The position numbers and the translations under genes were made by a program. A stretch of DNA of 39,373 bases from NCBI GenBank assembly GCA_017540265.1, contig JAFYBJ010000058.1, positions 1 through 39,373 of the forward strand. The letters are read 5' to 3'. The DNA comes from Lachnospiraceae bacterium. GTDB lineage: Bacteria; Bacillota; Clostridia; Lachnospirales; Lachnospiraceae. Positions within the stretch are counted from its first letter, which is position 1. Each line of letters starts with the position of its first letter. Shown here piece by piece: positions 4,024 to 19,997 of the stretch. Under the pieces are notes generated by a model. The model was not told the DNA's origin. It did no database searches and worked only from the letters and a program-made list of their open reading frames with translations.

Positions 4024-4053
4024 TTGACACAGACAGAGTATTTGTGCTATGAT
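4024..4053 (+). promoter_or_regulatory. Promoter of the T-box-aspS-gatCAB operon
   Basis: A perfect TTGACA (4024-4029) and TATGAT (4048-4053) are separated by 18 bases. This places transcription start near 4060, at the 5' edge of the T-box leader. Confidence 0.8.
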
Positions 4054-4059
4054 TGCGCA

Positions 4060-4331
4060 TATATTTAATGCTATGAAGGAGACTCCTGCAGGGGAGGGTG
4101 ACAGAGAGAAGGCGTCATGGGCTGAAAGCGCCTTTCACTATTAAGCTGTAAGGGGAACACTCCGGAGCAGATGCTTCGAGGAGGCTTCAGGGTTCTCATT
4201 AGGGGCATACGTAGGCTGCACGAAACGCAGTTAAATGAGAGAAGGTGCATGTCACCTTAACGCGGGTGGTACCGCGGATGAATGTTTATCCGTCCCGTGA
4301 TACATGTTTTCATGTGTCACGGGATTTTTTT
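4060..4331 (+). promoter_or_regulatory. T-box riboswitch controlling aspS-gatCAB
   Basis: The leader contains the invariant T-box core AACGCGGGTGGTACCGCGG at 4259-4277. The antiterminator folds as CGCGGG (4261-4266) with CCCGTG (4294-4299), a seven-base bulge TGGTACC (4267-4273), and GCGG (4274-4277) with CCGT (4290-4293). The terminator uses 4294-4306 with 4311-4323, so the two structures are mutually exclusive. Upstream are a Stem I-like distal element (AAGGCG...CGCCTT around GGCTGAAAG, 4109-4134), a hairpin closed by TCTCATT (4194-4200) and AATGAGA (4234-4240), and AAGGTG/CACCTT at 4242-4258. The likely specifier lies in GGAACACTCC: GAAC at 4155-4158 just before CTCC, which pairs with GGAG at 4078-4081. 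No clear GAC or GAT Asp codon occupies that place. I could not fold Stem I completely. This element fills the 4004-4358 gene gap. Confidence 0.92.
4294..4331 (+). terminator. T-box regulated intrinsic terminator
   Basis: A 13-bp stem (4294-4306 with 4311-4323, one T-G wobble) closes a TTTT loop and is followed by ATTTTTTT. Its 5' arm shares CCCGTG with the antiterminator, as required for tRNA-dependent switching. Confidence 0.92.
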
Positions 4332-4358
4332 GACACTACAGTTTTTTTGGAGGTTCAT

Positions 4359-6104
4359 ATGAGCGACATTTACAGAACAGTCACATTAAACGAGATTCGC
4401 GAGGATAAGATCGGAGAGACCGTGAAGGTTGCGGGATGGGTCGAGAATATCCGCGATCACGGAGGCGTTTCATTCATCGATCTGAGAGACAGGTACGGAG
4501 TGATACAGGTGGTCATGAGGGATACATCCCTTCTTGAGGGGATAGTAAGGGAGGATTGTGTTTCCATAGAGGGCCCGGTACAGGAACGCTCCGAAGATAC
4601 CTATAATCCAAAGATCGAGTCCGGAACCGTTGAGGTTGAGGCTAAGAGCATAACGGTCCTTGGAAAAGTTTACAGGCAGCTTCCTTTTGAGGTGATGACC
4701 TCAAAGGAGACAAGGGAAGAAGTGAGGCTTAAATACAGATATCTTGACTTAAGGAACAGGAAAGTGATGGACAATATGATCTTCCGTTCGAAGGTCATAA
4801 GCTATTTAAGGGAAAAGATGACAGAGCTTGGCTTCCTTGAGATACAGACCCCCATACTCTGTGCATCCTCTCCGGAAGGTGCAAGGGACTATATAGTTCC
4901 TTCAAGAAAGTACAAAGGAAAGTTCTATGCTCTTCCTCAGGCGCCGCAGCAGTACAAGCAGCTGCTCATGGTATCCGGTTTTGATAAATATTTCCAGATA
5001 GCTCCCTGTTTCAGGGATGAGGATGCCAGGGCTGACAGGAGCCCCGGTGAATTCTATCAGCTGGATTTTGAGATGAGTTTCGCAACCCAAGAGGATGTCT
5101 TTAAGGTGGGCGAGGAGGTGCTTACAGCGACCTTTAACAAGTTCGCTCCCGAGGGTGCGGCGATCACCCAGGCACCTTACCCTGTAATATCCTACAAACA
5201 GGCAATGTTGGAATTCGGCACGGACAAGCCGGATCTGAGGAATCCTTTAAGGATAATAGATGTGACAGAGTTCTTCCAGAGATGCACCTTCAAGCCCTTC
5301 CACGGAAAGACGGTTCGTGCGATAAATGTTCACAGTCAGATGTCAAAGGGCTTCCATGAAAAGCTCCTTAAGTATGCACAGTCGATCGGCATGGGCGGTC
5401 TGGGATACCTTGAGGTGCAGGAGGATATGTCCTATAAGGGGCCTATCGACAAATTCATTCCGGATGATATGAAGGCTGAGATAAAGGAGCTTGCGGGACT
5501 TTCTGCGGGAGATACCATATTCTTCATAGCGGATAAGGAAAAGCAGGCAAGTCTCTTTGCGGGACAGTTAAGGAATGAGATAGGTGCAAGGCTGGATCTT
5601 TATGAGAAGAATGCTTACCGTTTCTGCTATATAAATGATTTTCCCATGTATGAATATGACGAAGAGGAAAAGAAGATAGGATTTACACACAATCCTTTCT
5701 CTATGCCCCAGGGCGGTCTTAAGGCGTTAGAGGAGAAGGATCCACTTGATATTCTGGCATATCAGTATGATATAGTCTGCAACGGCGTGGAGCTTTCCAG
5801 CGGTGCTGTAAGAAACCATGACATGAAGATCATGGTAAAGGCATTTGAGATAGCGGGCTACGGCGAGGAGACACTTAAGGCTAAGTTCGGTGCTCTCTAC
5901 AATGCATTCCAGTTCGGAGCTCCTCCTCACGCAGGAATGGCGCCCGGTGTTGACCGTATGATAATGCTCCTCAGAAATGAAGAGAATATAAGGGAAGTGA
6001 TACCTTTCCCCATGAGCGGTACGGCACAGGATCTTATGTGCGGTGCGCCCGGAGAGGTCACGGAGCAGCAGCTTCGTGAGGTGCATATCAAGGTCAGGGA
6101 TTAA
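4359..6104 (+). CDS. aspS: Aspartyl-tRNA synthetase, probably non-discriminating
   Basis: A 581-residue class II synthetase of the bacterial type (usual ~590) charges tRNA(Asp) with aspartate, and probably tRNA(Asn) as well. Order: N-terminal OB-fold anticodon domain (1-~105), class II core with motif 2 (FRDEDARADRSPGEFYQLDFE), the inserted GAD domain (about 290-410), and motif 3 (GMAPGVDRMIMLL) near the end. The OB-fold has IRDHGG with His34. In characterised bacterial AspRS, Leu here goes with tRNA(Asp)-only enzymes and His with non-discriminating ones. The start at 4359 is chosen because GGAGG lies at 4349-4353 and because an upstream in-frame ATG at 4245 would translate the T-box terminator. 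It is the first gene of an operon with gatCAB, whose product would amidate Asp-tRNA(Asn). Confidence 0.97.
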   Translation: MSDIYRTVTLNEIREDKIGETVKVAGWVENIRDHGGVSFIDLRDRYGVIQVVMRDTSLLEGIVREDCVSIEGPVQERSEDTYNPKIESGTVEVEAKSITVLGKVYRQLPFEVMTSKETREEVRLKYRYLDLRNRKVMDNMIFRSKVISYLREKMTELGFLEIQTPILCASSPEGARDYIVPSRKYKGKFYALPQAPQQYKQLLMVSGFDKYFQIAPCFRDEDARADRSPGEFYQLDFEMSFATQEDVFKVGEEVLTATFNKFAPEGAAITQAPYPVISYKQAMLEFGTDKPDLRNPLRIIDVTEFFQRCTFKPFHGKTVRAINVHSQMSKGFHEKLLKYAQSIGMGGLGYLEVQEDMSYKGPIDKFIPDDMKAEIKELAGLSAGDTIFFIADKEKQASLFAGQLRNEIGARLDLYEKNAYRFCYINDFPMYEYDEEEKKIGFTHNPFSMPQGGLKALEEKDPLDILAYQYDIVCNGVELSSGAVRNHDMKIMVKAFEIAGYGEETLKAKFGALYNAFQFGAPPHAGMAPGVDRMIMLLRNEENIREVIPFPMSGTAQDLMCGAPGEVTEQQLREVHIKVRD

Positions 6105-6123
6105 AAAGGAAGGATACGCACAA

Positions 6124-6417
6124 ATGGCAAATATAATAAGTGATGAAACTATAGAATATGTGGGGATCCTGTCAAAGCTTAAATTGAATGATGAGCAGAA
6201 GGAGCAGGCAAAGAAGGATCTGGCACAGATGCTTGATTATATAGATAAGCTGGGAGAACTGGATACGGAAGGTGTGGAGCCCATGACCCATGTACATCCG
6301 GATGTCAATGCATTCAGGGAGGATGTGGTCACAAACGGTGACGATCATGAGGCGATACTTTCAAATGCGCCGGAGGAAAGAGAGCAGGCCTTTGCGGTAC
6401 CGAGAACATTTGATTAA
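6124..6417 (+). CDS. gatC: Asp/Glu-tRNA amidotransferase subunit GatC
   Basis: This is a 97-residue small subunit of the GatCAB amidotransferase, close to the usual ~95. GatC wraps around GatA and stabilises the A-B complex. Typical features are visible: ISDETIEYVGILSKLKLNDEQ at the N-terminus, DLAQMLDYIDKLGELDTEGVEPMTHV in the middle, and FREDVV followed by LSNAPE near the C-terminus. The start at 6124 is chosen over the upstream in-frame ATG at 6043, because the latter lies inside aspS and because AAGGAAGGA precedes 6124. The gene sits 19 bases after aspS and 31 before gatA. Confidence 0.95.
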   Translation: MANIISDETIEYVGILSKLKLNDEQKEQAKKDLAQMLDYIDKLGELDTEGVEPMTHVHPDVNAFREDVVTNGDDHEAILSNAPEEREQAFAVPRTFD

Positions 6418-6448: not shown

Positions 6449-7891
6449 ATGGCAGATAAGATAAATGAGATGACAGCCGTATCTCTCGGTAAAGAGATAG
6501 CTGCAGGCAGGGTGAGTGTAAAAGAAGCGCTGGATTCCTGCTTTGAGATGATAGAGAAAAGGGAAGACGAAATAAATGCATATATCACACTCGATAAGGA
6601 TAATGCATATAAAAGAGCCGAGGATATACAAAAAAAGATATCTTCAGGCGAGCTTTCCTCACCCGTTGCAGGTGTGCCGGTGGCAATAAAGGATAATATG
6701 TGCACCAAAGGGCTTAAGACCACCTGTGCATCAAGGATACTCGGAAATTTTGTGCCCACCTATACTTCCACAGCAGTTGAAAATCTGGAAAAAGCAGGAG
6801 CCGTGATCTTAGGAAAGACGAACATGGATGAATTTGCCATGGGTTCCACTACGGAAACATCGGCTTTTGGTGTAACAAAGAATCCGAGAGATACATCCCG
6901 TGTTCCGGGAGGGTCATCGGGCGGTTCTGCTGCTGCAGTCGCTGCGGATGAGTGCATATTTGCGCTGGGGTCAGATACGGGAGGTTCCATCCGGCAGCCG
7001 GCAGGATACTGTGGAGTGGTTGGTATGAAGCCTACATATGGAACAGTTTCCCGTTACGGACTTATAGCTTACGGATCCTCTCTCGATCAGATAGGACCCA
7101 TTACCAAAAATGTAGAGGATACAGCTGCTGTCCTTGAAGTGATCAGTTCTTATGACAAAAAGGATTCCACTTCACTTAACAGAAAGGATACTGCCTTTAC
7201 ATCAGCCTTAAAGGAAGATGTTAAGGGATTGAAGATAGGTATACCTTCGGATTATTTCGGAGAAGGGCTTGACCCTGAAGTGGCTGCGGCTGTAAGAAAA
7301 GCGGCAGATGATCTTAAGGCGGCAGGCGCTGAGGTTTCAGAATTTGACTTAAGTCTGGTAGAGTATGCGATACCTGCCTACTATACGATAGCAGATGCCG
7401 AGGCAAGCTCGAATCTGGAGCGCTTTGACGGCATAAAATACGGATACAGGGCAGAAGAATATAAAGATCTTCACGATCTTTACAAGACCACACGTTCCGA
7501 AGGCTTCGGCGAGGAAGTAAAGCGCCGTATAATGCTCGGCTCGTTCGTGCTTTCTTCAGGATATTATGATGCTTACTATCTTAAGGCACTTAAGGTGAAG
7601 GCACTCATAAAGAAGGCGTTTGATGAAGCATTTTCAAAGTATGATCTGATACTTGGACCTGTGGCTCCCACCACAGCTCCGGAGCTTGGAAAGAGTCTTT
7701 CGGATCCGCTTAAGATGTATCTTGGTGATATCTATACGATATCCGTAAATCTGTCAGGGCTTCCCGGTATATGTCTTCCCTGCGGGAGGGACAGTAAGGG
7801 ACTTCCTATAGGTCTTCAGCTCATAGGCGATTGCTTTAAGGAGGATATCCTTATAAGGACCGCATATACATACGAAAGGATGACACGATGA
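6449..7891 (+). CDS. gatA: Asp/Glu-tRNA amidotransferase subunit GatA
   Basis: GatA is the glutaminase subunit. It hydrolyses glutamine and sends ammonia to the GatB active site for conversion of Asp-tRNA(Asn) to Asn-tRNA(Asn) or Glu-tRNA(Gln) to Gln-tRNA(Gln). At 480 residues it has the normal length of the amidase-signature family. The Ser-cisSer-Lys triad is complete: K81 in VAIKDNM, S156 in GGSSGGS, and nucleophile S180 in SDTGGSIRQPA. The spacing is the same as in the Staphylococcus aureus enzyme. The ribosome binding site is weak (GAGG, 11 bases upstream). Its stop overlaps the gatB start as ATGA, which suggests translational coupling and balanced stoichiometry. Confidence 0.97.
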   Translation: MADKINEMTAVSLGKEIAAGRVSVKEALDSCFEMIEKREDEINAYITLDKDNAYKRAEDIQKKISSGELSSPVAGVPVAIKDNMCTKGLKTTCASRILGNFVPTYTSTAVENLEKAGAVILGKTNMDEFAMGSTTETSAFGVTKNPRDTSRVPGGSSGGSAAAVAADECIFALGSDTGGSIRQPAGYCGVVGMKPTYGTVSRYGLIAYGSSLDQIGPITKNVEDTAAVLEVISSYDKKDSTSLNRKDTAFTSALKEDVKGLKIGIPSDYFGEGLDPEVAAAVRKAADDLKAAGAEVSEFDLSLVEYAIPAYYTIADAEASSNLERFDGIKYGYRAEEYKDLHDLYKTTRSEGFGEEVKRRIMLGSFVLSSGYYDAYYLKALKVKALIKKAFDEAFSKYDLILGPVAPTTAPELGKSLSDPLKMYLGDIYTISVNLSGLPGICLPCGRDSKGLPIGLQLIGDCFKEDILIRTAYTYERMTR

Positions 7892-9366
7892 GTAAGGAAT
7901 ACGAGACAGTCATAGGACTTGAAGTACACGTGGAGCTTGCCACAAAGACGAAGATATTCTGCGGCTGTTCGACAGCTTTCGGGGGGGCTCCCAATACACA
8001 TACATGCCCTGTCTGCACAGGTATGCCCGGTTCTCTTCCGGTGCTCAATAAGCAGGTGGTGGAATATGCAATGGCCGTGGGGCTTGCAACAAACTGCGAG
8101 ATCACAAGGCATTGTAAATTTGACAGGAAGAATTATTTCTATCCCGACAATCCGCAGAATTATCAGATATCGCAGCTGTATCTTCCGATATGCAGGAACG
8201 GTCATGTGGATATAGAGCTTGGAAGAGTCTCTGTAAATCAGAAGAATGCAGGCAAGGAGGCCGGTGAGATAAGGCATAAGCAGGTCCGCATCCATGAGAT
8301 ACATATGGAAGAGGATGCGGGAAAGCTCATACATGATGAGTGGGCCGATGAGTCACTGGTGGATTACAATCGTTCGGGTGTGCCCCTCATAGAGATAGTA
8401 TCTGAGCCGGATATGCGTTCCGCGGAGGAGGTCATAGCTTACCTTGAAACGCTGCGCCAGACCATACAGTATCTGGGAGCTTCCGACTGCAAGCTTCAGG
8501 AAGGCTCCATGAGAGCGGATGTAAATCTTTCGGTGCGTGAAGTGGGAAGCACTGAGTTTGGTACCAGGACAGAGATGAAGAATCTCAATTCCTTTACATC
8601 GATCACGCATGCCATAGAAAATGAACGTGAGCGCCAGATAGATATCATTGAATCCGGCGGGAAGGTGGTACAGGAAACCAGGCGTTTCGATGATGCAAAG
8701 GGTGAATCCTATGCGATGCGAAGCAAGGAGGATGCGCAGGATTACAGGTATTTCCCCGATCCCGATCTTATCCCTGTGGATATATCCGATGAATGGATAG
8801 AGAGAGTAAAGGCTGCACAGCCTGAATTCAGGCCGGCAAAGATAGAGCGCTACAAGGAAGAATACGGCATACCGGACTACGATATAGAGCTTATAACCCA
8901 GTCAAAACGCATGGCTGATATATTTGAGGAATCCGTAAGGCTTGGTGCAGATGCAAAGAAGGTCTCCAACTGGCTTATGGTAGAGACCATGAGGCTCCTT
9001 AAGGAAAAGAATATGGATGCCGATAAGCTTGTGTTCTCACCGGCGCATCTTGCAAAACTTGTGGAACTTGTTGATAAGAAAGTGATAAACAACAATACCG
9101 CTAAGGAAGTTTTTGCACAGATGTTTGAGGATGATACAGATCCCGTGAAGTATGTGGAGGAGCATGGCCTTAAGCAGGAAAATGACAGCGGAGCCATAAA
9201 GGAGATATGCAGTGCTGTCATAGAAGCAAATCCCAAATCTGTTGAAGATTATAAGGGCGGAAAGGAAAAGGCGATAGGTTTCCTTGTAGGCCAGGTAATG
9301 AAACAGGCAAAGGGAAAGGCTGATCCGGGAACCGTTAATGAGATATTAAAGGAGCTGCTTTCTTAA
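7888..9366 (+). CDS. gatB: Asp/Glu-tRNA amidotransferase subunit GatB
   Basis: GatB is the tRNA-binding and kinase/amidotransferase subunit. It activates the side-chain carboxylate of misacylated Asp- or Glu-tRNA with ATP and transfers ammonia from GatA. At 492 residues it is slightly longer than the usual ~476. The N-terminal catalytic cradle begins YETVIGLEVHVELATKTKIFC. A zinc-type Cys set is present at C25, C27, C40 and C43 (FCGC...CPVC). The PDNPQNYQISQ and DYNRSGVPLIEIVSEPD segments are typical. The C-terminal YqeY-like tail domain (about 350-492) ends in KADPGTVNEILKELL. It overlaps gatA by 4 bases. With aspS and gatC/A in one operon, the full indirect Asn-tRNA pathway is encoded together. 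Confidence 0.97.
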   Translation: MSKEYETVIGLEVHVELATKTKIFCGCSTAFGGAPNTHTCPVCTGMPGSLPVLNKQVVEYAMAVGLATNCEITRHCKFDRKNYFYPDNPQNYQISQLYLPICRNGHVDIELGRVSVNQKNAGKEAGEIRHKQVRIHEIHMEEDAGKLIHDEWADESLVDYNRSGVPLIEIVSEPDMRSAEEVIAYLETLRQTIQYLGASDCKLQEGSMRADVNLSVREVGSTEFGTRTEMKNLNSFTSITHAIENERERQIDIIESGGKVVQETRRFDDAKGESYAMRSKEDAQDYRYFPDPDLIPVDISDEWIERVKAAQPEFRPAKIERYKEEYGIPDYDIELITQSKRMADIFEESVRLGADAKKVSNWLMVETMRLLKEKNMDADKLVFSPAHLAKLVELVDKKVINNNTAKEVFAQMFEDDTDPVKYVEEHGLKQENDSGAIKEICSAVIEANPKSVEDYKGGKEKAIGFLVGQVMKQAKGKADPGTVNEILKELLS

Positions 9367-9372
9367 AGTTTA

Positions 9373-10413
9373 GTGGATATAAGAAGGATACATTACATTG
9401 ATAGTGCAAAATGCCTGGGCATCATACTCGTGGTGCTCGGGCATTTGTGTTCTGTGGAAGGTGTGTGCGGTACCACATATCCCGTAAGATGGCTGTCATA
9501 TTTTATGCTGCCTTTATTTTTCGCTGCCTCGGGATCGCTCATGAGTGCAAAAAAGGAGACGGAACGCGATCTTAAAGCGTTTATTGTAAAACGTCTTAAA
9601 AGCCTTATCGTACCGTACATATCATTTTCACTTATTTATTTTCTCATAGGTCTGCTTAATTATTTTACCGGCCGTATGGATGCGATGACGGTAAGAGAGC
9701 ATGTCATATCATCTGTTATATTTACCGGTTATTCAACATTGTGGTTTCTTCCCGTGCTTTTTGTCTCGGAGATATTTACATATGTGCTTATAAAAAGATT
9801 AAAGAAACCTGCATTATATGTTGCGGCTGCCTTTGGGCTTGCCGTTATAGCTTTTGCCGTGGATGAGTTTCTGATAAAGGGGTATTTGGAAGGTATAAAT
9901 ATTTATGCTGCGGGATTCCTTAGAATATTTACAAAGAGTTTAACATCCTCATTTTTTATGGCAGCGGGGGCTGCGGCATTTCCTGTGATGGCAGCTCTTT
10001 CCGGCAAAGTCCCGGTTTTTATTGCGGGGACAGTCCTTCTTTTGATTGAAAGCGTTATTGCCTTTATCTTTAAGGATATAGCAGATTTAAACAACATGCG
10101 GCTTGGAAATCCTGCCATATATCTCCTGGGCAGTCTCTCCGGAACCTTTGGCAGCCTGCTTATACTAAACATGCTTCCGGAGATCAGGGTATTTTCCTTT
10201 TTCGGAAAAAACGCCCTGATCATTATGGCTACACATCTTAACTTTTATATACTTCTTATTGCGATGAAGCTTGCCGGTATCGTTTACGGATCATCATCAG
10301 GTTTTGTTTTTATTTTTATCACAATGATCATATGTTTTATCCTGGAAATCCCGTTATGTATTTTATTTAACAGGTATTTTTTCAGACTTCTGGGAAGAGC
10401 ACATGCGGCATAG
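9373..10413 (+). CDS. Acyltransferase 3 family membrane protein
   Basis: This is a 346-residue polytopic protein with about ten hydrophobic helices. The N-terminal signature (RIHYIDSAKCLGIILVVLGH, then FMLPLFFAASGSLMS) is that of the acyltransferase 3 superfamily, which O-acylates (often O-acetylates) extracytoplasmic sugars, peptidoglycan or polysaccharides. The His of VVLGH matches the conserved catalytic histidine in TM1. It starts with GTG six bases after gatB and has no strong ribosome binding site of its own; the nearest purine run lies within gatB. It is therefore probably expressed by read-through or reinitiation from the gat operon. There is no obvious functional link to tRNA amidation. 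The substrate is unknown. Confidence 0.82.
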   Translation: MDIRRIHYIDSAKCLGIILVVLGHLCSVEGVCGTTYPVRWLSYFMLPLFFAASGSLMSAKKETERDLKAFIVKRLKSLIVPYISFSLIYFLIGLLNYFTGRMDAMTVREHVISSVIFTGYSTLWFLPVLFVSEIFTYVLIKRLKKPALYVAAAFGLAVIAFAVDEFLIKGYLEGINIYAAGFLRIFTKSLTSSFFMAAGAAAFPVMAALSGKVPVFIAGTVLLLIESVIAFIFKDIADLNNMRLGNPAIYLLGSLSGTFGSLLILNMLPEIRVFSFFGKNALIIMATHLNFYILLIAMKLAGIVYGSSSGFVFIFITMIICFILEIPLCILFNRYFFRLLGRAHAA

Positions 10414-10452: not shown

Positions 10453-13400
10453 ATGTCTTTAAGATTCTATATAGGGGCTTCCGGTTCCGGAAAAACAGGC
10501 AGAATGGAAGAAGATATGACTGCCCTTGCAATAAAAGATATTGACAGGCAGTTTATTTATATTGTTCCGGATCAGTTCACCCTTCAGACACAGAAGGAAA
10601 TGGTGGAAAAGAGCCCGAGGAAAGGGATAATGAACATTGATGTGCAGAGCTTCGGAAGGCTTATGCACAGGATAAACGATGAGGTGGGCGGAACAGACAG
10701 GCTGATACTTGATGATACCGGGAAGAATCTTATTTTGCGTAAGGCAGCCTTTGAAATATCCGGTGAATTAAAGGTCATAGGAAAAAATTTTAAGCGGACG
10801 GGTTATGTACATGAAGTGAAGTCTGTTCTTTCGGAATTTGAACAGTACGGACTAAAATCTGCCGATCTTGATAAGCTCATAGATGGCACGTCTTCTAAGC
10901 CTCTTCTTAACGGAAAACTAAAAGATCTTAAGCTTGTATATGAAAAGATGGAGGAATTCTGCAGGGAAAGGTATATCACCAAGGAAGAAAAAATGGATGT
11001 ACTGGCAGAGGGGATTTACAGGTCGCAGGCTCTTAAAGGAGCGGTGGTGGCTCTTGATGGTTTTACGGGATTTACACCGGTACAGGATAAGGTTCTTAAG
11101 GCTCTTCTTATGACCTGTGCGGAAGTCTGGGTAAGCATAATCCTTCCTGCAGAGGAATATGAGGATTATCTGGCGGATAACGATGAACACAGGCTCTTTG
11201 CCATGAGTATGAAGACAATGGGAAAATTAAGACAGCTTGCAAAGGACTGTGGCTGCAGGGTGGAGGAGCCTGTATTTCTTTACGGCGATCCGGTTAAGCG
11301 TTATGAGACTAATCCGGGACTTTCAGCTCTTGAAAGGAATCTTTTCAGGGAAAAAAGAAAAAGTGCAGTAAAAGCGGAAAATATAAAGCTGTTCAGGGCC
11401 AAAGATCCGGAGACGGAGCTTAGGGAGATATTCTTGCGCATACTTGAACTTAGCTTAAAAGAAGGTTATGCCTATAAGGATATAGCCGTGGCAGTAAGCG
11501 ACATGGAAACTTATGCCGATTTTGCCGAAAGCCTGGCAGAGACATACGGCATCCCGGTATTTACGGATTATTCCAGGAAACTGATGATGACTCCGTTTAC
11601 CGAATTTATCACTTCTGTTCTTGAGGCTGTGGTTTCGGATCTGTCATATGAGAGTGTGATGCATTTTGCCAAGAGCGGTATGGCACCTTTAACGGATGAT
11701 GAGATCTGTACTTTGGATAATTATCTTTTTGCCACAGGTATACGCGGATATAAAAAATATTGTGAGCCTTTTACGAGGCTTCCCCGTTACGTTAAAAAAA
11801 GATATCCGGAAAGCGAAAGGCAGGCAGAATATTTAAAAACCGTAAATGATATCAGAGTAAAGATAACAGAAATGCTCGCGCCCTTTACGGAATATAAGAA
11901 GGGCGGAGACGCCGCAGAGATAAGCGAAAGAATTTATGAGCTTATGTTAAAGGCTGACTGTGCAGGGAAGCTTGGCGCTTTTGCCAAAAAAGCCGCGGTC
12001 CGTGGAGATATCGTAAGGGAGAAAGAGTATGAGCAGCTTTACAGATATATATGCGGGCTTCTTGAGCAGATTCACAGCCTGCTTAACGGCAGTTTCATGG
12101 AGCTTTCGGAATACCTGGAGATATTGAAGGCCGGCATAGAGGAAATATCCGTAGGCGTTCTTCCAATGGATATTGACAGGGTGGTAATAGGTGATATGCA
12201 AAGGACGAGGTTTAAGCCCGTAAAGATCCTTTTTGCCGCAGGCTTTAATTCCGATCTTGTTCCGGGAACGAATTCCTCGGGGGGGATGATATCAGATATG
12301 GACAGGGAATATCTGGGAAGTCTTGGCTTTGAGCTTGCGCCCACGCCGAGACAGAAGATGTTCATGCAAAGACTGTATATCTACCATGTGCTTACAAGGC
12401 CTTCCGAACAGCTTATAGTCTCATACAGCGCCTTAAACAGAGAAGGGGCTTCCATCAGACCATCATATGTGTTGTCACATATAAAAAATATATTCACCGA
12501 CCTTGTCACGGAATATGCCGAGGACAGAAAGGGGCTTTTACTTATGCCGGCAGGAAGAGGCGATGCGAACCTGCTTCCCGTATTCCTGTCCGAGGCTGCG
12601 GCGGGAAGTATAGATACTGATAATGAAAAACTCCTTGCGGTGCTGGTTCACCGGAAAAAGGAAACTGATCCTGAAGGATTACTTGAACTTATGGAGGCTG
12701 CTTACGGGGCGTATGTTTCCAACCCGCTTTCTAAGAGGGCTCTTTATTATCTTTACGGGAACGGACTTATTACAAGCATAAGCAGCCTTTCCCGTATGGC
12801 GTCCTGTCCTTATTCCTATTATCTGGCTTACGGCATGAGGCTTGAGGAAAGAGAGAATGCCGGTTTTAATGTCATGGATATCGGCAATATATATCATGAC
12901 GCTTTGAGAATATTAGATGGGAAGTTTAATGCGTTAAATATCGACTGGGCCGATATCCCGGAAGATATGCTTGACAGCCTTGTGGAGGAATCACTCCTTA
13001 CGGCCCAGGGGGCGTACGGAACGGATATGCTCTATGCCGATAAGAGAACGGCATATCAGGCTGTAAGGATGAAGAGGATACTTACGACCGGCGTGCAGGC
13101 TCTTTCCTTCCAGTTTGGCAAAAGTACTTTCAGGCCCTTTGCACATGAACTTCCGTTCAAAAGAGAGATAGGAAAAGAGGGAGAACTTAAGGTCTTTTTA
13201 AACGGACGTATAGACAGGCTCGATACTTCCTCTTCTCCGGACGGAATGCTTCTTAAAGTAGTGGACTATAAATCCGGGAAAAAGGATATCAACATGGATG
13301 AATTATATTACGGAACACAGCTTCAACTCCCGGTATATCTGAATGAAGGTCTTAAGATCCTGAAGGAGCGTTTCCCGGGGCAGAATATAATACCGGCTGC

Positions 13401-13869
13401 TTTATTCTACTTTACCATAAGGGATCCGTATGTCGAAGCAAAGGAAGGTCTGATACCGGGCGATGAAGAGGTTAAAAGAATAATACTCTCGGAACTTAAG
13501 CCTTCCGGATATTTTTCGCAAAAGGAATCGGTGCTTGATGCACTTGACAGGAATATTAAAACTGCGGGTGTTTCGGAAGCGGTAAATTACAAACAGAAAA
13601 GTGACGGAACGGTAAGAGCCGGCATAAATATCCTTTCTGAGGATGAAATGGATGCCCTCCTTTCCTTTACCGAAAAAAAGATAGAGGGATTGGCAGGAGA
13701 GATATGTGACGGGAATATTTCCGTAAGCCCTCTCGGAGATGCATGCAAGTATTGCAAAGGGGCGGAAATATGTCCTTTCGACAGTTCCGTAAAGGGCTTT
13801 AAGAAACGGAAAAAGGATATTAAGGCATCTTCTGCCAAAGAGATCATATGTACCGGAGGTGCGGAATAA
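10453..13869 (+). CDS. addB: AddAB helicase-nuclease subunit AddB
   Basis: This is the 1138-residue AddB subunit of the Firmicute double-strand-break resection enzyme. AddAB unwinds and degrades ends until it meets its Chi sequence, then gives a 3' tail to RecA. The N-terminus has a Walker A (FYIGASGSGKT, K14) in an otherwise inactive helicase fold. The C-terminal nuclease has GRIDRLD (D921, D924), VVDYKSG (D938, K940) and TQLQLPVY. Four cysteines bind a 4Fe-4S cluster: C785 (ASCPYSYYL) and C1098, C1101 and C1107 (CKYC-x5-C). The 3/6 spacing matches Bacillus subtilis AddB. The start at 10453 has GGGAGAT upstream. The stop overlaps the addA start as TAATG. Confidence 0.96.
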   Translation: MSLRFYIGASGSGKTGRMEEDMTALAIKDIDRQFIYIVPDQFTLQTQKEMVEKSPRKGIMNIDVQSFGRLMHRINDEVGGTDRLILDDTGKNLILRKAAFEISGELKVIGKNFKRTGYVHEVKSVLSEFEQYGLKSADLDKLIDGTSSKPLLNGKLKDLKLVYEKMEEFCRERYITKEEKMDVLAEGIYRSQALKGAVVALDGFTGFTPVQDKVLKALLMTCAEVWVSIILPAEEYEDYLADNDEHRLFAMSMKTMGKLRQLAKDCGCRVEEPVFLYGDPVKRYETNPGLSALERNLFREKRKSAVKAENIKLFRAKDPETELREIFLRILELSLKEGYAYKDIAVAVSDMETYADFAESLAETYGIPVFTDYSRKLMMTPFTEFITSVLEAVVSDLSYESVMHFAKSGMAPLTDDEICTLDNYLFATGIRGYKKYCEPFTRLPRYVKKRYPESERQAEYLKTVNDIRVKITEMLAPFTEYKKGGDAAEISERIYELMLKADCAGKLGAFAKKAAVRGDIVREKEYEQLYRYICGLLEQIHSLLNGSFMELSEYLEILKAGIEEISVGVLPMDIDRVVIGDMQRTRFKPVKILFAAGFNSDLVPGTNSSGGMISDMDREYLGSLGFELAPTPRQKMFMQRLYIYHVLTRPSEQLIVSYSALNREGASIRPSYVLSHIKNIFTDLVTEYAEDRKGLLLMPAGRGDANLLPVFLSEAAAGSIDTDNEKLLAVLVHRKKETDPEGLLELMEAAYGAYVSNPLSKRALYYLYGNGLITSISSLSRMASCPYSYYLAYGMRLEERENAGFNVMDIGNIYHDALRILDGKFNALNIDWADIPEDMLDSLVEESLLTAQGAYGTDMLYADKRTAYQAVRMKRILTTGVQALSFQFGKSTFRPFAHELPFKREIGKEGELKVFLNGRIDRLDTSSSPDGMLLKVVDYKSGKKDINMDELYYGTQLQLPVYLNEGLKILKERFPGQNIIPAALFYFTIRDPYVEAKEGLIPGDEEVKRIILSELKPSGYFSQKESVLDALDRNIKTAGVSEAVNYKQKSDGTVRAGINILSEDEMDALLSFTEKKIEGLAGEICDGNISVSPLGDACKYCKGAEICPFDSSVKGFKKRKKDIKASSAKEIICTGGAE

Positions 13870-16800
13870 TGGGAATGGATTTTACTGCAGAACAGCAGGC
13901 CGTTATTGATCTAAGAAACGCAAATCTTATAGTTTCCGCAGCTGCCGGAAGCGGAAAGACGGCAGTACTGGTTGAACGCATAATATCCCTTATAACGGAC
14001 AGGGAAAAACCTGCGGATATAGACAGGTTTCTTATAGTGACTTTTACAAAAGCTGCCGCTGCGGAAATGAAAGAGAGACTTTCTGCAGCATTGTTAAAAC
14101 TGATGGAGGAGCATCCGGAGGATAAACGTCTGCTTAAACAGGAAAGCCTCATACAGAATGCGATGATATGTACCATCGACAGCTTTGCTTTTTATGTGGT
14201 AAGGAATCATTTTACGGCGATAGGCCTTGAACCGGGCTTCAGACCCATGGATGACGGGGAAAAAGCGCTTATGGAGGCCGATGCCATGGAAATGCTCTTG
14301 GAGGAAGAGTATGAAAAGCAGCTTCCGGAATTTCTTGAGCTTGTTGAAAGCTATACGGCAGGTACGTCAGAGGACACTTTGGAGGGGATGATAAGCGCAC
14401 TTTACAGGACAGCTCTCAGTGAACCTTTTCCGGAAAGATGGCTTAAGGAAGCTCTTTTAAAGAATGAACAGGATACGGTTTCTCCCTACGACAGTGCGTG
14501 GGTACTTTACGGGATCAAAAAAGCCGGATCATATCTTAAGAAAGTTATAAGGGCATGTGACGAGGGAATAAGGCTTTCATCGATGGAGGACGGTCCTGCT
14601 GCATATCTGGAAAATTTTGCATATATAAAGAACTTCGCCGAAATCATACTGAATTCGTCCTCTTACCGGGATGCCGTCCATGCAATGGAAAACTATTCAA
14701 AGCCCAGGCTTTCTTCAAAGAAGGGAAAGAATGAAGATCCGGATATAAGGGCAAGAGCTAAGGCTTTAGCTGACAGCGCAAAAGAACTGATGGAAAAGGC
14801 AGGGGTCGTATATTCTTATTCAGAGGAAAGCCTTGCAGAGGATATCAGACTTTCTTCGGCGCATACGGCGGAGCTTATACGTCTTACACTAAGGTATCTG
14901 GAGATATTTGATGGTATGAAGAGGGAAAAGAATGTCCTTGATTTTCCTGACATGGAACATCTTGCTCTTAAGATCCTCTATGATGAAAATGAAAAGACCA
15001 CTCCCGCAGCAGAGGAATACAGAGATTATTTTGAATATGTATTTACTGATGAATACCAGGACAGCAATATGGTTCAGGAGTATCTTCTTAAGGCGGTCGT
15101 GGGAGAGGATAACGGCTTTTTCGTGGGAGATGTGAAGCAGTCTATCTATGGTTTCAGGCATGCAAGACCGCAGATCTTTCTTAACAGATATGAAAGAAGT
15201 TCGGATACAGGTACAGACAGATCTATCGATCTTAATAAGAATTTCAGGAGCCGGGAAAATATCCTTACGCCTGTAAATGATATCTTTAACGTATTAATGA
15301 CAAAGGACAGGGGCGGCATAGAATATGATGAAAGGGCAAGGCTCTATGCGGGAAATATGGACTATCCGGAATACGAGGGATCGGGCGCAGAGTACATAAA
15401 GCTGTATCTTTCAAAAGATGAGGACAGACTTTTGGAAGATTCTGCGTTAAAAAACTATGAGGCATTATTATGCGCAAAAGCCATAAAGGATCTTTTTGAC
15501 AAAGGCTATGAAGTATATGACAGAGAAAGAGGTAAAATGCGTCCGGTCCGTTATTCGGATATCGTGATATTGGTAAGACAAAGAGGATATGAAGAAGCCC
15601 TGGAAGAAGCCTGTGCCCGCCGCGGCATACCTCTTTATCATGAAAGCTCTGCAGGCTATTTTGATACCCCGGAGATCAAGCTTGTCCTGAATGCATTAAA
15701 AGTGATAGACAATCCCGACGATGATATATCTCTATACGGAACACTTACGGGATTCCTTAAGATCTTTAGTGATGAGGATATGGCATTTTTTGCCTCTTTA
15801 AAGAGGTCGAGGGGAGGCGGACTGTATGAGAATATCGTATATGCCTCGGAAGATGAGGGTGAGATACCGGATAAGATAAGGAGAGGGGCAGATGCCTTCC
15901 TTGGATTCTTAAAAAAATACAGGGAGCTGTCGAGGGAAGCCGGAGTAAGGGAACTTACGGAAAAAATGATAAATGAAAACGGTTTTTCAGAGAGGATATC
16001 AGCCATGCCGGGAGGGCTTCAGAGAAGAGCCAATCTTTCGATGCTGCTTGAGAGGGCCGATGGATTTGAACAGACCTCCTACAGGGGGCTGTTCAGGTTC
16101 GTAAGATATATAAAAGGATTAAAAGACAGGGATGTTGATTACGGTGAGGCGGCAGTTCTGGATGAAAAGGCTGATGTGGTCAGGCTTATGACGATACATA
16201 AGAGCAAGGGTCTTGAATTCCCGGTTGTGATAATGCCCGGGCTTTCACAGGCTTTCCGTTTTACGGACTCTTTGGCGGAGTGTATATCGGACAGTGACAT
16301 GGGGATAGCCTTAAAAGCTGTGGATACGGGGAAGCGAGTTATCAGGAAAGGCTTTAAGTATAATGTTTTTTCCGCAAAGAAAAGGGCAGATGCCATAGCC
16401 GAAGAGATAAGGCTCTTATATGTGGCACTTACAAGAGCAAAGGAAAAGTTGATACTGATAGATGCTGCGGTATTGGGAAAGGAAAAGCTCTCGCCGGATA
16501 TAAGGGAACCGGAGGAGGCGGGGAAATATGCCGATCTTTTAAGATATGCCATTATAAACGGAGATTTTCCGAAGCATGCGCTTATAAGAAGTATTACGGA
16601 AGAGGAACTTGCCGCCAATGAGGCGGCGGTTATGGATGAGGCGTTTAATAAGTCAAAAGAAGGATATGAGGGAGTTCCCGATCCCGGGCTCCTTAAGGAA
16701 TTCGAGAGAGCGCTTGAATATACCTATGCTTTTCCGGCATATAAAGGCCTTTTTGCAAAGACGACTGTGACGGAATTAAAAAAAGCCGCATATGATGATG

Positions 16801-17408
16801 AACCGGAGGCAGGAGAAACGAGGGCATTTCCCGAAAAAGAGGTAAAAGATTATGTGCCTTCTTTCATAAAACCGGCAGAAGACGGTGCAAGAAGAGGTAC
16901 TGAGACTCATAAACTTATGGAAAATCTGCCTTTTGATGACCTTGATGCATTACGTCAGAGCAAAGACCTGCTGAATAAACATATCGAAGAGGAACACCGT
17001 AAGGGGAGGTTAAAAAACCCGGAACTGATAAATTTAAAGGAGGTCGTTTCTTTTATATCATCGGATCTGGCTAAACGAATGGAAGAGGCAAAAAAGGAAG
17101 GAAAGCTTTACAGGGAGCAGCCGTTCTTCTTTGCAGTGCCTGCAACAGAGTTTGACAGTGATTTTCCCGAAGAGGAAGATATCCTGGTTCAGGGCGTTAT
17201 AGATGCATTTTTTGAAGAAGACGGCGCTCTGGTGCTTGTTGACTACAAGACAGACAGACTAAAGTCTGCGGATGATTTTATAAAGCTCTATGCAAAACAG
17301 CTTGAGATATATGCAAGGGCCCTTGAACAGATAAGGGGGCTTAAGGTAAAGGAAAAACTGATTTATTCCTTCTGCCTTGGCAGTACGATAGAAATCCCGT
17401 CCGAATGA
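13869..17408 (+). CDS. addA: AddAB helicase-nuclease subunit AddA
   Basis: This is a 1179-residue UvrD-like (SF1A) helicase with a C-terminal RecB-type nuclease; the family is usually ~1200. Helicase motifs in order: Walker A SAAAGSGKTAVL (K30), VTFTKAAAAEMKERL, VFTDEYQDSN (motif II), GDVKQSIYGFRHA (III), RLMTIHKSKGLEFPVV (V), and LLYVALTRAKEKL (VI). The nuclease has QGVIDAFFEE and VDYKTD (D1125, K1127) near the end. The start at 13869 is preferred over the in-frame ATG at 13848 inside addB, since GGAGGT (13855-13860) sits 8 bases before it and it overlaps the addB stop by one base. AddA gives the motor and one of the two nuclease sites; AddB gives the other and Chi recognition. Confidence 0.97.
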   Translation: MGMDFTAEQQAVIDLRNANLIVSAAAGSGKTAVLVERIISLITDREKPADIDRFLIVTFTKAAAAEMKERLSAALLKLMEEHPEDKRLLKQESLIQNAMICTIDSFAFYVVRNHFTAIGLEPGFRPMDDGEKALMEADAMEMLLEEEYEKQLPEFLELVESYTAGTSEDTLEGMISALYRTALSEPFPERWLKEALLKNEQDTVSPYDSAWVLYGIKKAGSYLKKVIRACDEGIRLSSMEDGPAAYLENFAYIKNFAEIILNSSSYRDAVHAMENYSKPRLSSKKGKNEDPDIRARAKALADSAKELMEKAGVVYSYSEESLAEDIRLSSAHTAELIRLTLRYLEIFDGMKREKNVLDFPDMEHLALKILYDENEKTTPAAEEYRDYFEYVFTDEYQDSNMVQEYLLKAVVGEDNGFFVGDVKQSIYGFRHARPQIFLNRYERSSDTGTDRSIDLNKNFRSRENILTPVNDIFNVLMTKDRGGIEYDERARLYAGNMDYPEYEGSGAEYIKLYLSKDEDRLLEDSALKNYEALLCAKAIKDLFDKGYEVYDRERGKMRPVRYSDIVILVRQRGYEEALEEACARRGIPLYHESSAGYFDTPEIKLVLNALKVIDNPDDDISLYGTLTGFLKIFSDEDMAFFASLKRSRGGGLYENIVYASEDEGEIPDKIRRGADAFLGFLKKYRELSREAGVRELTEKMINENGFSERISAMPGGLQRRANLSMLLERADGFEQTSYRGLFRFVRYIKGLKDRDVDYGEAAVLDEKADVVRLMTIHKSKGLEFPVVIMPGLSQAFRFTDSLAECISDSDMGIALKAVDTGKRVIRKGFKYNVFSAKKRADAIAEEIRLLYVALTRAKEKLILIDAAVLGKEKLSPDIREPEEAGKYADLLRYAIINGDFPKHALIRSITEEELAANEAAVMDEAFNKSKEGYEGVPDPGLLKEFERALEYTYAFPAYKGLFAKTTVTELKKAAYDDEPEAGETRAFPEKEVKDYVPSFIKPAEDGARRGTETHKLMENLPFDDLDALRQSKDLLNKHIEEEHRKGRLKNPELINLKEVVSFISSDLAKRMEEAKKEGKLYREQPFFFAVPATEFDSDFPEEEDILVQGVIDAFFEEDGALVLVDYKTDRLKSADDFIKLYAKQLEIYARALEQIRGLKVKEKLIYSFCLGSTIEIPSE

Positions 17409-19120: not shown

Positions 19121-19849
19121 TTATTCCTGAACCATGCGTCCTATACGTAAAAGTGCCTTCTTTACGGGAGGAAGTGAGAGTATGAAAATTGTGATCACAG
19201 CCTCGAGAAGCAGATATGAGTAGTTGTAGCATATGGGATATATGGCGGCAAGGTTTGCAGGGAAATTCTCGGGCATGTAGTCCATCCAGTAAAGATATCC
19301 TCCTATGGTATGGAAAACGCCTCTTGCGAGTACGGCTGCGATATATCCTATCGTAAGACCGTTTCTGAATCTGTTAAAGAAACCGGATATACCAAGCGCG
19401 GTGAACGCAAAGATATAGTCGAGGAATACCTGCATGGGGTTTAACATGTAGCTTGCGCCGTCCTGCACAAATTCAAGCAGGCCGTAGGCGAGCGCTGTGG
19501 TAAGACCTATCACGGGACCGTACCAGAAGCCGATGATAGTTATAAAAAGCATGGAGCAGAGAGTGACGGAACCGCCCCAGGGCATGGGGATGAGCCTTAC
19601 ATAGGAGAGTGCAAATGCAAGCGCGATACCGAGCGCCGAAACTACTAACTGCTTTGTTGAGAATACTTTTTTTGCTGCAGCTGTAGATCCTGCGGTGTCT
19701 GTTTTTCCCTTGTCAGATTCCACAGCCATCGCGCGGGATGCCAGAAAGGCAGTAAGTACAACAAGTGCCGCTACCATAATAAGCATGACAACAGATCCTG
19801 TCTGTGTTAACGAATAATATCCGTCTTCATTGGTGATGAAATTTCCCAT
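19121..19849 (-). CDS. thiT: Thiamine-specific ECF transporter S component ThiT
   Basis: This is a 242-residue membrane protein. The core (about residues 65-235) has the six-helix ThiT fold. Typical ThiT segments are ALSYVRLIPMPWGGSVTLCSM (residues 77-97), YGPVIGLTTALAYGLLEFVQDG, a NPMQVFLDYIFAF segment and a GGYLYW segment. ThiT binds thiamine and works with the shared EcfAAT energising module, which is not in this window. The assignment is supported by a TPP riboswitch directly upstream. The start at 19849 is chosen over an in-frame ATG at 19891 because GGAGG (- strand, 19857-19861) precedes it. The usual ThiT is ~180-200 residues; here about 60 extra N-terminal residues include one more hydrophobic helix (VVMLIMVAALVVLTAFLA) and an Ala/Ser/Lys-rich linker. 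Confidence 0.92.
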   Translation of the reverse strand: MGNFITNEDGYYSLTQTGSVVMLIMVAALVVLTAFLASRAMAVESDKGKTDTAGSTAAAKKVFSTKQLVVSALGIALAFALSYVRLIPMPWGGSVTLCSMLFITIIGFWYGPVIGLTTALAYGLLEFVQDGASYMLNPMQVFLDYIFAFTALGISGFFNRFRNGLTIGYIAAVLARGVFHTIGGYLYWMDYMPENFPANLAAIYPICYNYSYLLLEAVITIFILSLPPVKKALLRIGRMVQE

Positions 19850-19890
19850 AAAAAAACCTCCGATAAAATTTTTGCATGGAGGACTGATCA

Positions 19891-19976
19891 CTGCTTTCCT
19901 TACCGGGATTATCCGGTCAGGTTCAAGGGTCCGGAAGTTACTTCCGTCTCAGCCGCAAATCAGCGCCCCTAGCTTT
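19891..19976 (-). promoter_or_regulatory. TPP (thiamine pyrophosphate) riboswitch
   Basis: Read on the - strand, the conserved THI-box pieces occur in order: AGGGGCGCT, CGGCTGAGA, ACCCTTGAACCTGA, CCGGATAATCCCGG, AAGGAAAGC. The aptamer spans about 19893-19973. Downstream, CCTCC (- strand of 19878-19882) is complementary to the thiT ribosome binding site GGAGG (- strand of 19857-19861), so bound TPP probably blocks translation. I infer this from complementarity only. High TPP would shut off thiamine uptake. Confidence 0.95.
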
Positions 19977-19997
19977 ATATTGAATTTGTACCGTGCC

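Follow-up and report, generated by a model that had tools for sequence, protein, structure and literature searches.

In the window, by which we mean the whole stretch of 39,373 nucleotides analysed here, the aspS-gatCAB operon is very probably preceded by a transcription-terminating T-box riboswitch that is specific for tRNA-Asn, and in which G4155 lies outside any codon and forms, with C4083, the closing pair of the helix by the specifier. The tetranucleotide GAAC in its specifier loop looks like two overlapping codons, GAA for Glu and AAC for Asn, and the first-pass annotation of this DNA had taken it for a specifier of both tRNAs. Computation gave us the leader, the terminator, the place of the specifier, the helix with its covariation, the order of the genes and the discriminator bases of the relatives' tRNAs; from these we infer that the leader binds tRNA and controls termination.

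In the mechanism that we propose, uncharged tRNA-Asn (anticodon GUU) would pair with AAC at 4156-4158, while its 3' end would pair with UGGU at 4267-4270 through a G73-U wobble and so stabilise the antiterminator. A shortage of Asn-tRNA(Asn) would in this way lead to transcription of aspS-gatCAB. The specifier would sit in a compact 1x4 loop without an S-turn, with the helix closed by C4083-G4155 stacked on it.

The leader and its operon

GAAC occupies positions 4155-4158 and is followed by A4159 and by CUCC at 4160-4163, as had been annotated. The sequence around it can be aligned with the T-box model RF00230 over the full model length, from Stem I to the antiterminator (4064-4300, plus strand, 82.5 bits, E = 1.9e-18); together with the gene matches given below, this confirms that GAAC belongs to a T-box leader in front of aspS-gatCAB. 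The score stays below the Rfam gathering score of 93, which is why the T-box is absent from the result of an Rfam scan with default settings, where the sole match in the window is a TPP riboswitch elsewhere. Note that the gathering score is an Rfam threshold and not a biological feature. We do not regard it as a veto, since the parts of a T-box are present and the relatives of the leader form a family that was found with a covariance model of its own (R1, described below).

These parts, all on the plus strand, are an antiterminator with the conserved T-box sequence at 4264-4296 (from the RF00230 alignment, boundaries set by eye), the bulge UGGU at 4267-4270, which is the predicted partner of the NCCA at the 3' end of the tRNA, an intrinsic terminator at 4292-4325 with a 15-bp stem, a 4-nt loop and a T tail, and the aspS gene, which begins at 4359. 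A consensus scan also gave a sigma-70-like promoter at 4024-4053 on the same strand (TTGACA, 18 nt, TATGAT, with TG before the -10; 11 of 12 matches). One promoter-like site was found where 0.7 were expected in shuffles, so that the match is by itself no evidence of function and we treat it as a candidate site. The stretch 4068-4335 folds better than its shuffles (z = -3.60), and 4068-4195, that is, Stem I and part of Stem II, folds about as well as shuffles do (z = -0.54, with 55 of 200 equally good). Folding the whole leader in one run produced a structure that is not that of a T-box, and this fold was set aside.

By eye, the RF00230 alignment has AAC 4156-4158 (plus strand) in the three columns that follow GAA-x and usually contain the specifier, which is also its place in canonical leaders with GAA-x-AAC. 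Where the consensus has the GAA of the S-turn, the window has GGG. The placement by covariance model that had been suggested as a check thus ends on AAC and not on GAC. As the first gene is aspS, one may expect the specifier to lie at another place and to be, for instance, an Asp codon within this loop; related loops with GAC are indeed found, in front of hisS (L348) and of hisS-aspS (L363/L386). We consider this explanation highly improbable here, because the model columns, the unpaired loop and the triplet that is common to both classes of leaders all point to AAC, and because there is neither GAC nor GAU within the 1x4 loop.

The operon itself (plus strand) consists of aspS at 4359-6104, an aspartate-tRNA ligase of the bacterial type (NF001750, 749 bits, cut-off 443), gatC at 6136-6417 (TIGR00135, 91 bits, residues 32-124 of the open reading frame 6043-6417), gatA at 6449-7891 (TIGR00132, 645 bits) and gatB at 7888-9366 (NF004014, 673 bits). 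According to an excerpt of PMC2494555, the amidotransferase converts Asp-tRNA(Asn) and Glu-tRNA(Gln) to their amide forms. Since the products of GatCAB are Asn-tRNA(Asn) and Gln-tRNA(Gln), the charging of tRNA-Glu is independent of the operon, and the earlier statement that tRNA-Glu is one of the tRNAs whose charging depends on it is wrong. Neither the window's genome (73% complete) nor four genomes that are 99-100% complete (G002, G004, G027 and G034) gave an asnS above the family cut-off. A second AspRS of the window's genome, at C49, is 54% identical to that of the window, and the 700 nt upstream of it gave no T-box motif; we infer that of the two it is the T-box-controlled AspRS that serves tRNA-Asn.

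As for the other features of the window, a gene for a Clostripain-family peptidase (PF03415, 2063-4003, plus strand) lies directly upstream of the leader. An acyltransferase gene (9373-10413) stands upstream of a pair of AddB-like and UvrD-helicase/nuclease genes, probably addAB (10453-17408, plus strand). The TPP riboswitch (19879-19980, minus strand, 56.6 bits, over the gathering score) is followed by a ThiT-like thiamine transporter gene (19121-19891, minus strand, 89 bits, under the family cut-off), whose true start is probably further in, since the listed start of the open reading frame runs into the riboswitch.

Two classes of leaders

We collected 121 upstream stretches, namely that of the window, those of 80 named loci and 40 from unnamed relatives, including stretches upstream of other AspRS-like genes. 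An S-turn-free pattern, for which GGAAC and a purine were required, was found in 40 of the 121; its right strand reads GGAAC-R-CUYYGGAGC, and its left strand is GGAGACUC or AGAGACUC in nearly all cases. A canonical pattern, for which GAA-x-AAC-A was required, occurs with AGUA on the left in 34 stretches, and in the other 47 the leader takes a different form or a T-box motif is missing. In the canonical aspS leaders AAC stands in the standard place and is preceded by U in 29, by G in three and by A in two.

In a wider S-turn-free search the left GAGAC and, on the right, AAC with a purine were required, and the base before AAC was left free. The resulting set excludes the copies of the window (L001, L002) and identical Stem I sequences. 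L267, whose Stem I is identical to that of L266, was left out as well. Among 73 related S-turn-free leaders G precedes AAC in 72 and C in one; as the pattern of the wider search fixed the left C, AAC and the purine, it says nothing about the conservation of these. Given the 72 of 73, GAAC is not there by chance. For the alignment of Stem I we chose 38 representatives and aligned 37 of them (without L098); L100 was excluded from this work, as a tandem duplication had misplaced its left strand. Both L098 and L100 have tandem repeats of a 14-nt unit in the distal Stem I loop, as seen by eye. Another pattern, in which the left strand was fixed as GAGA and the right one as AACRCTCYGGAGC, had matches in 53 of 392 genomes, many of which are not T-boxes. 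Finally, the covariance model R1 was built from the S-turn-free Stem I and searched in 391 genomes of the class, where it has matches in at least 238; 25 of 30 listed loci were read for Stem I. Two R1 matches with a UGGA bulge (L349 and L352) resemble, by eye, threonine (ACC) leaders before thrS-like genes, and they too have no plain AGUA/GAA S-turn.

The conserved G is what one would expect of a two-codon T-box, in which GAAC gives AAC to tRNA-Asn and GAA to tRNA-Glu and the operon follows both tRNAs. There is a precedent for such a leader in Clostridium acetobutylicum, as summarised in an excerpt of PMC4052509. For the reasons that follow, we think that this explanation is unlikely for the window.

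A specifier loop without S-turn

The accessible part of PMC4695836 describes an AGUA/GAA S-turn in the specifier loop of most T-boxes; since the source says "most", the S-turn is not strictly a defining feature. When we looked for 5'-AGUA-3' opposite 5'-GAA-3', it was missing from the window as well as from the S-turn-free class. RNAalifold was run on the 37 aligned leaders without any given structure and returned a consensus in which GGAG pairs with CUCC, a 1x4 loop has A on one side and A-A-C-R on the other, and an upper helix is closed by the pair that corresponds to C4083-G4155. In the window (plus strand), this predicts a lower Stem I helix of GGAG at 4078-4081 with CUCC at 4160-4163, a loop of A4082 facing A-A-C-A, and directly on top of it an upper helix of 4083-4086 with 4152-4155, where the partner of C4083 is G4155, with which the presumed Glu codon GAA begins. 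The S-turn-free form thus reads as the canonical form minus the AGUA and GAA strands, with the upper helix ending right at the specifier.

The consensus, the pair counts and the partition function agree on both helices. Over the ten relevant pairs, 94.6% of the cells in the 37 leaders can pair, against 28-63% in slid controls, although the helix derives from the same alignment as the counts and is thereby favoured over its slid versions. Pairs 2, 3 and 4 of the upper helix show double changes in 1, 6 and 15 sequences, respectively. The closing pair is CG in 36 of the 37 leaders and CC in one, and because it hardly varies, its own covariation is almost absent; its left C had also been fixed by the pattern of the wider search. 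The partition function of the window's Stem I leaves G4155 unpaired with a probability of 0.02, and the bases A4156 to A4159 with probabilities of 0.98-1.00. To open GAA takes about 2.6 kcal/mol in ensemble energy, to open AAC 0.02. Single-sequence folding of the 73 leaders gave a base before AAC that is unpaired with a probability below 0.5 in 62 and mostly unpaired in 11, and an AAC whose bases are all more than 0.5 unpaired in 60 and that is not fully open in 13.

AAC therefore lies in a loop that is predicted to be unpaired, as needed for an Asn specifier. A two-codon specifier would need both GAA and AAC to be free to pair; the sequence for this is there, but G4155 is predicted to be paired with C4083 in a helix that covaries. 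One could still imagine that C4083-G4155 breathes and acts as a selector, so that the closed form offers AAC to tRNA-Asn and the open form GAA to tRNA-Glu, with UGGU kept for both G73 and A73. We find this quite improbable; if it were true, a group of transamidation operons across the family would sense two tRNAs by means of a loop that has no S-turn.

The same loop is also found with the Asp specifier GAC, in two of the 25 R1 loci that were read (L348 and L363). The gene downstream is a hisS-like one in the first (at a contig edge, and named by eye) and hisS-aspS in the second, which is also listed as L386. There U or C precedes GAC and faces a G on the left strand, so the base before the specifier follows its pairing partner.

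Genes behind the leaders in related genomes

Next, we asked which genes follow the two classes. Among the 80 named loci all 28 S-turn-free leaders stand before an aspS with gatC or gatA next to it, whereas 33 of the 34 canonical leaders precede an aspS without gat genes in the stretch of up to 3 kb past aspS. GAAC leaders in general are mostly found on aspS-gatCAB or ND-aspS-gatCAB operons. The two-codon model would predict the same association, which counts against a reading in which only tRNA-Asn is sensed.

On the other hand, the same G is found before asnS and before a hisS-aspS pair. The same loop, with GGGAAC and UGGU, precedes asnS in five leaders of four genomes (G006, G032, G018 and G021), and for asnS, which charges tRNA-Asn directly, no role of Glu is evident. 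These asnS genes are above the NCBIfam cut-off in G006, G032 and G018, and in G021 the gene is a fragment at a contig edge that is below it. The Stem I of the G006 asnS leader is 79% identical to that of the aspS leader of the same genome and 92-93% identical to those of the other asnS leaders, and two copies in G018 have an identical Stem I; as the asnS leaders are so similar, we count them as few independent events. The leader of these genes (L264-L268) is like that of aspS-gatCAB and looks as though it had been reused for asnS upon the acquisition of direct Asn charging. Likewise, a hisS-aspS pair (G895, L382) has a GGAAC leader, and the 6.4 kb examined near the pair in G895 hold no gat genes. 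Conversely, one leader of an ND-aspS-gatCAB operon has CAAC in place of GAAC (G347; L261/L284), and by eye U precedes AAC in L069 and A in L061 and L083, where aspS is followed by gat genes and GatA is about 50% identical to that of the window. In G057 a C precedes AAC, and distant gat genes lie about 950 nt past aspS. The G057 leader (L103/L285) has the bulge UGGC, and its AAC lies 124 nt downstream of the end of a tRNA-Asn gene.

Some S-turn-free leaders are followed by genes of about 30% identity that we considered to be asnS. This was rejected, as the best NCBIfam match is NF003483, aspartate-tRNA(Asn) ligase, for 14 of 14; the score is over the cut-off in 13 and below it in L261, where the gene is cut by the end of the stretch. 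In 13 of 13 lengthened stretches gatCAB lies downstream (L259, near a contig end, was left out). In the family as a whole, asnS is present in 193 of 250 genomes. No T-box motif was found at the 30 best asnS loci of these 193 genomes, up to 1.5 kb upstream (less in L306, L308 and L311, at contig ends), so T-box control of asnS was seen only in four genomes of the window's genus. Nor was a T-box motif found upstream of gatA at 25 loci of 24 genomes with canonical leaders.

The motif is also missing from the 700 nt of the upstream stretch L118 and from those upstream of aspS at nine loci of the window's own genus (L087-L094 and L096), which are aspS orthologs of 86-91% identity. Judging from these sequences, T-box control seems to have been lost or moved within the genus.

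Bulge and tRNA discriminators

By eye, tRNA-Asn has G73 in nine of nine genomes of relatives that were read and tRNA-Glu(UUC) has A73 in 11 of 11. The tRNA-Glu pattern matched in 4 of 8 and 9 of 18 genomes, some of the matches not being tRNAs, and ARAGORN covered 8 of the 11 loci of the second set; the discriminators are thus known for part of the set. In the incomplete genome of the window neither tRNA-Asn nor tRNA-Glu(UUC) was found, and the sole tRNA-Glu found there is Glu(CUC) with G73.

The UGGU of the window would form a Watson-Crick pair with A73 of tRNA-Glu(UUC) and a wobble with G73 of tRNA-Asn. Such a G-U wobble at the discriminator position of the bulge is accepted by TBDB, according to an excerpt of PMC7778990, and tRNA-Asn therefore fits. 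All 70 of 70 leaders of the wider S-turn-free set carry UGGU, so both tRNAs could be accommodated, which favours the two-codon T-box. Since UGGU accepts both, the leaders of the window and its close relatives may bind tRNA-Glu weakly. However, UGGU is also found in 24 of the 34 canonical aspS leaders, 21 of which have U before AAC and hence no GAA codon, so that it does not point to Glu.

In seven GAAC leaders the bulge is UGGC instead: L347, L354, L359 and L366, and L064, L068 and L077, which have the related form GGAGAAC (L070 has this form with UGGU). L354, L359 and L366 stand upstream of aspS-gatCAB. In G786 (L366) and in the genome of L064, UGGC and GAAC occur together on aspS-gatCAB and tRNA-Asn has G73, while tRNA-Glu has A73 in both of these and in G895 (L347) and would not pair with the bulge C. 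Here the bulge fits tRNA-Asn and not tRNA-Glu.

The bases of the specifier itself can be compared with general rules. As given in the accessible text of PMC7583486, the third base of a specifier is overwhelmingly C, through a Stem II S-turn that reads the tRNA base G34, and the base just after the specifier is preferably a purine. AAC followed by A4159 satisfies both rules, and GAA followed by C satisfies neither. Of the two-codon specifier originally annotated, the Asn part stands, as an AAC specifier on an operon for transamidation of Asp-tRNA(Asn). The Glu part is not supported, in view of the paired G4155, the leaders of asnS and hisS-aspS, the UGGC bulges and the variants with C, U or A before AAC.

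Comparison with known systems

The available part of a 2008 survey (PMC2494555) reports no T-boxes upstream of amidotransferase genes. Asn T-boxes on the transamidation pathway are already known, and what is more unusual in our finding is the loop without S-turn. In the literature searched, read in excerpts and with two T-box surveys of 2008 and 2009 outside it, we came upon no account that treats Stem I specifier loops without an S-turn as a class, and the novelty of the loop is provisional. This conserved loop serves both Asn and Asp specifiers, and the window's member lies below the Rfam threshold: the leader is like RF00230 in that it aligns with the full model from Stem I to the antiterminator, and unlike it in its 82.5 bits against 93 and in having GGG instead of GAA in the S-turn columns.

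With the canonical tRNA-Asn T-boxes (L006 and 33 others) the leader shares a related aspS downstream, the AAC specifier and the T-box sequence. They differ in that they keep the AGUA/GAA S-turn, have mostly U before AAC (29 U, 3 G, 2 A), and in 33 of 34 cases have no gat genes beside aspS.

Another close system is the Asn/Glu two-codon T-box on the transamidation operon of C. acetobutylicum (Saad et al. 2013, via the excerpt of PMC4052509). As in the window, overlapping Asn and Glu codons are found in the specifier loop of a leader on a transamidation operon. We compared that leader by its description; for the window, the prediction places the first base of GAA within a helix. Before two tRNAs are deduced from overlapping codons in a specifier loop, the structure thus has to be checked, and in the window such a check corrected a tempting misreading. 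If the two-codon leader of C. acetobutylicum has the same loop, the same pairing test can be applied to its Glu codon.
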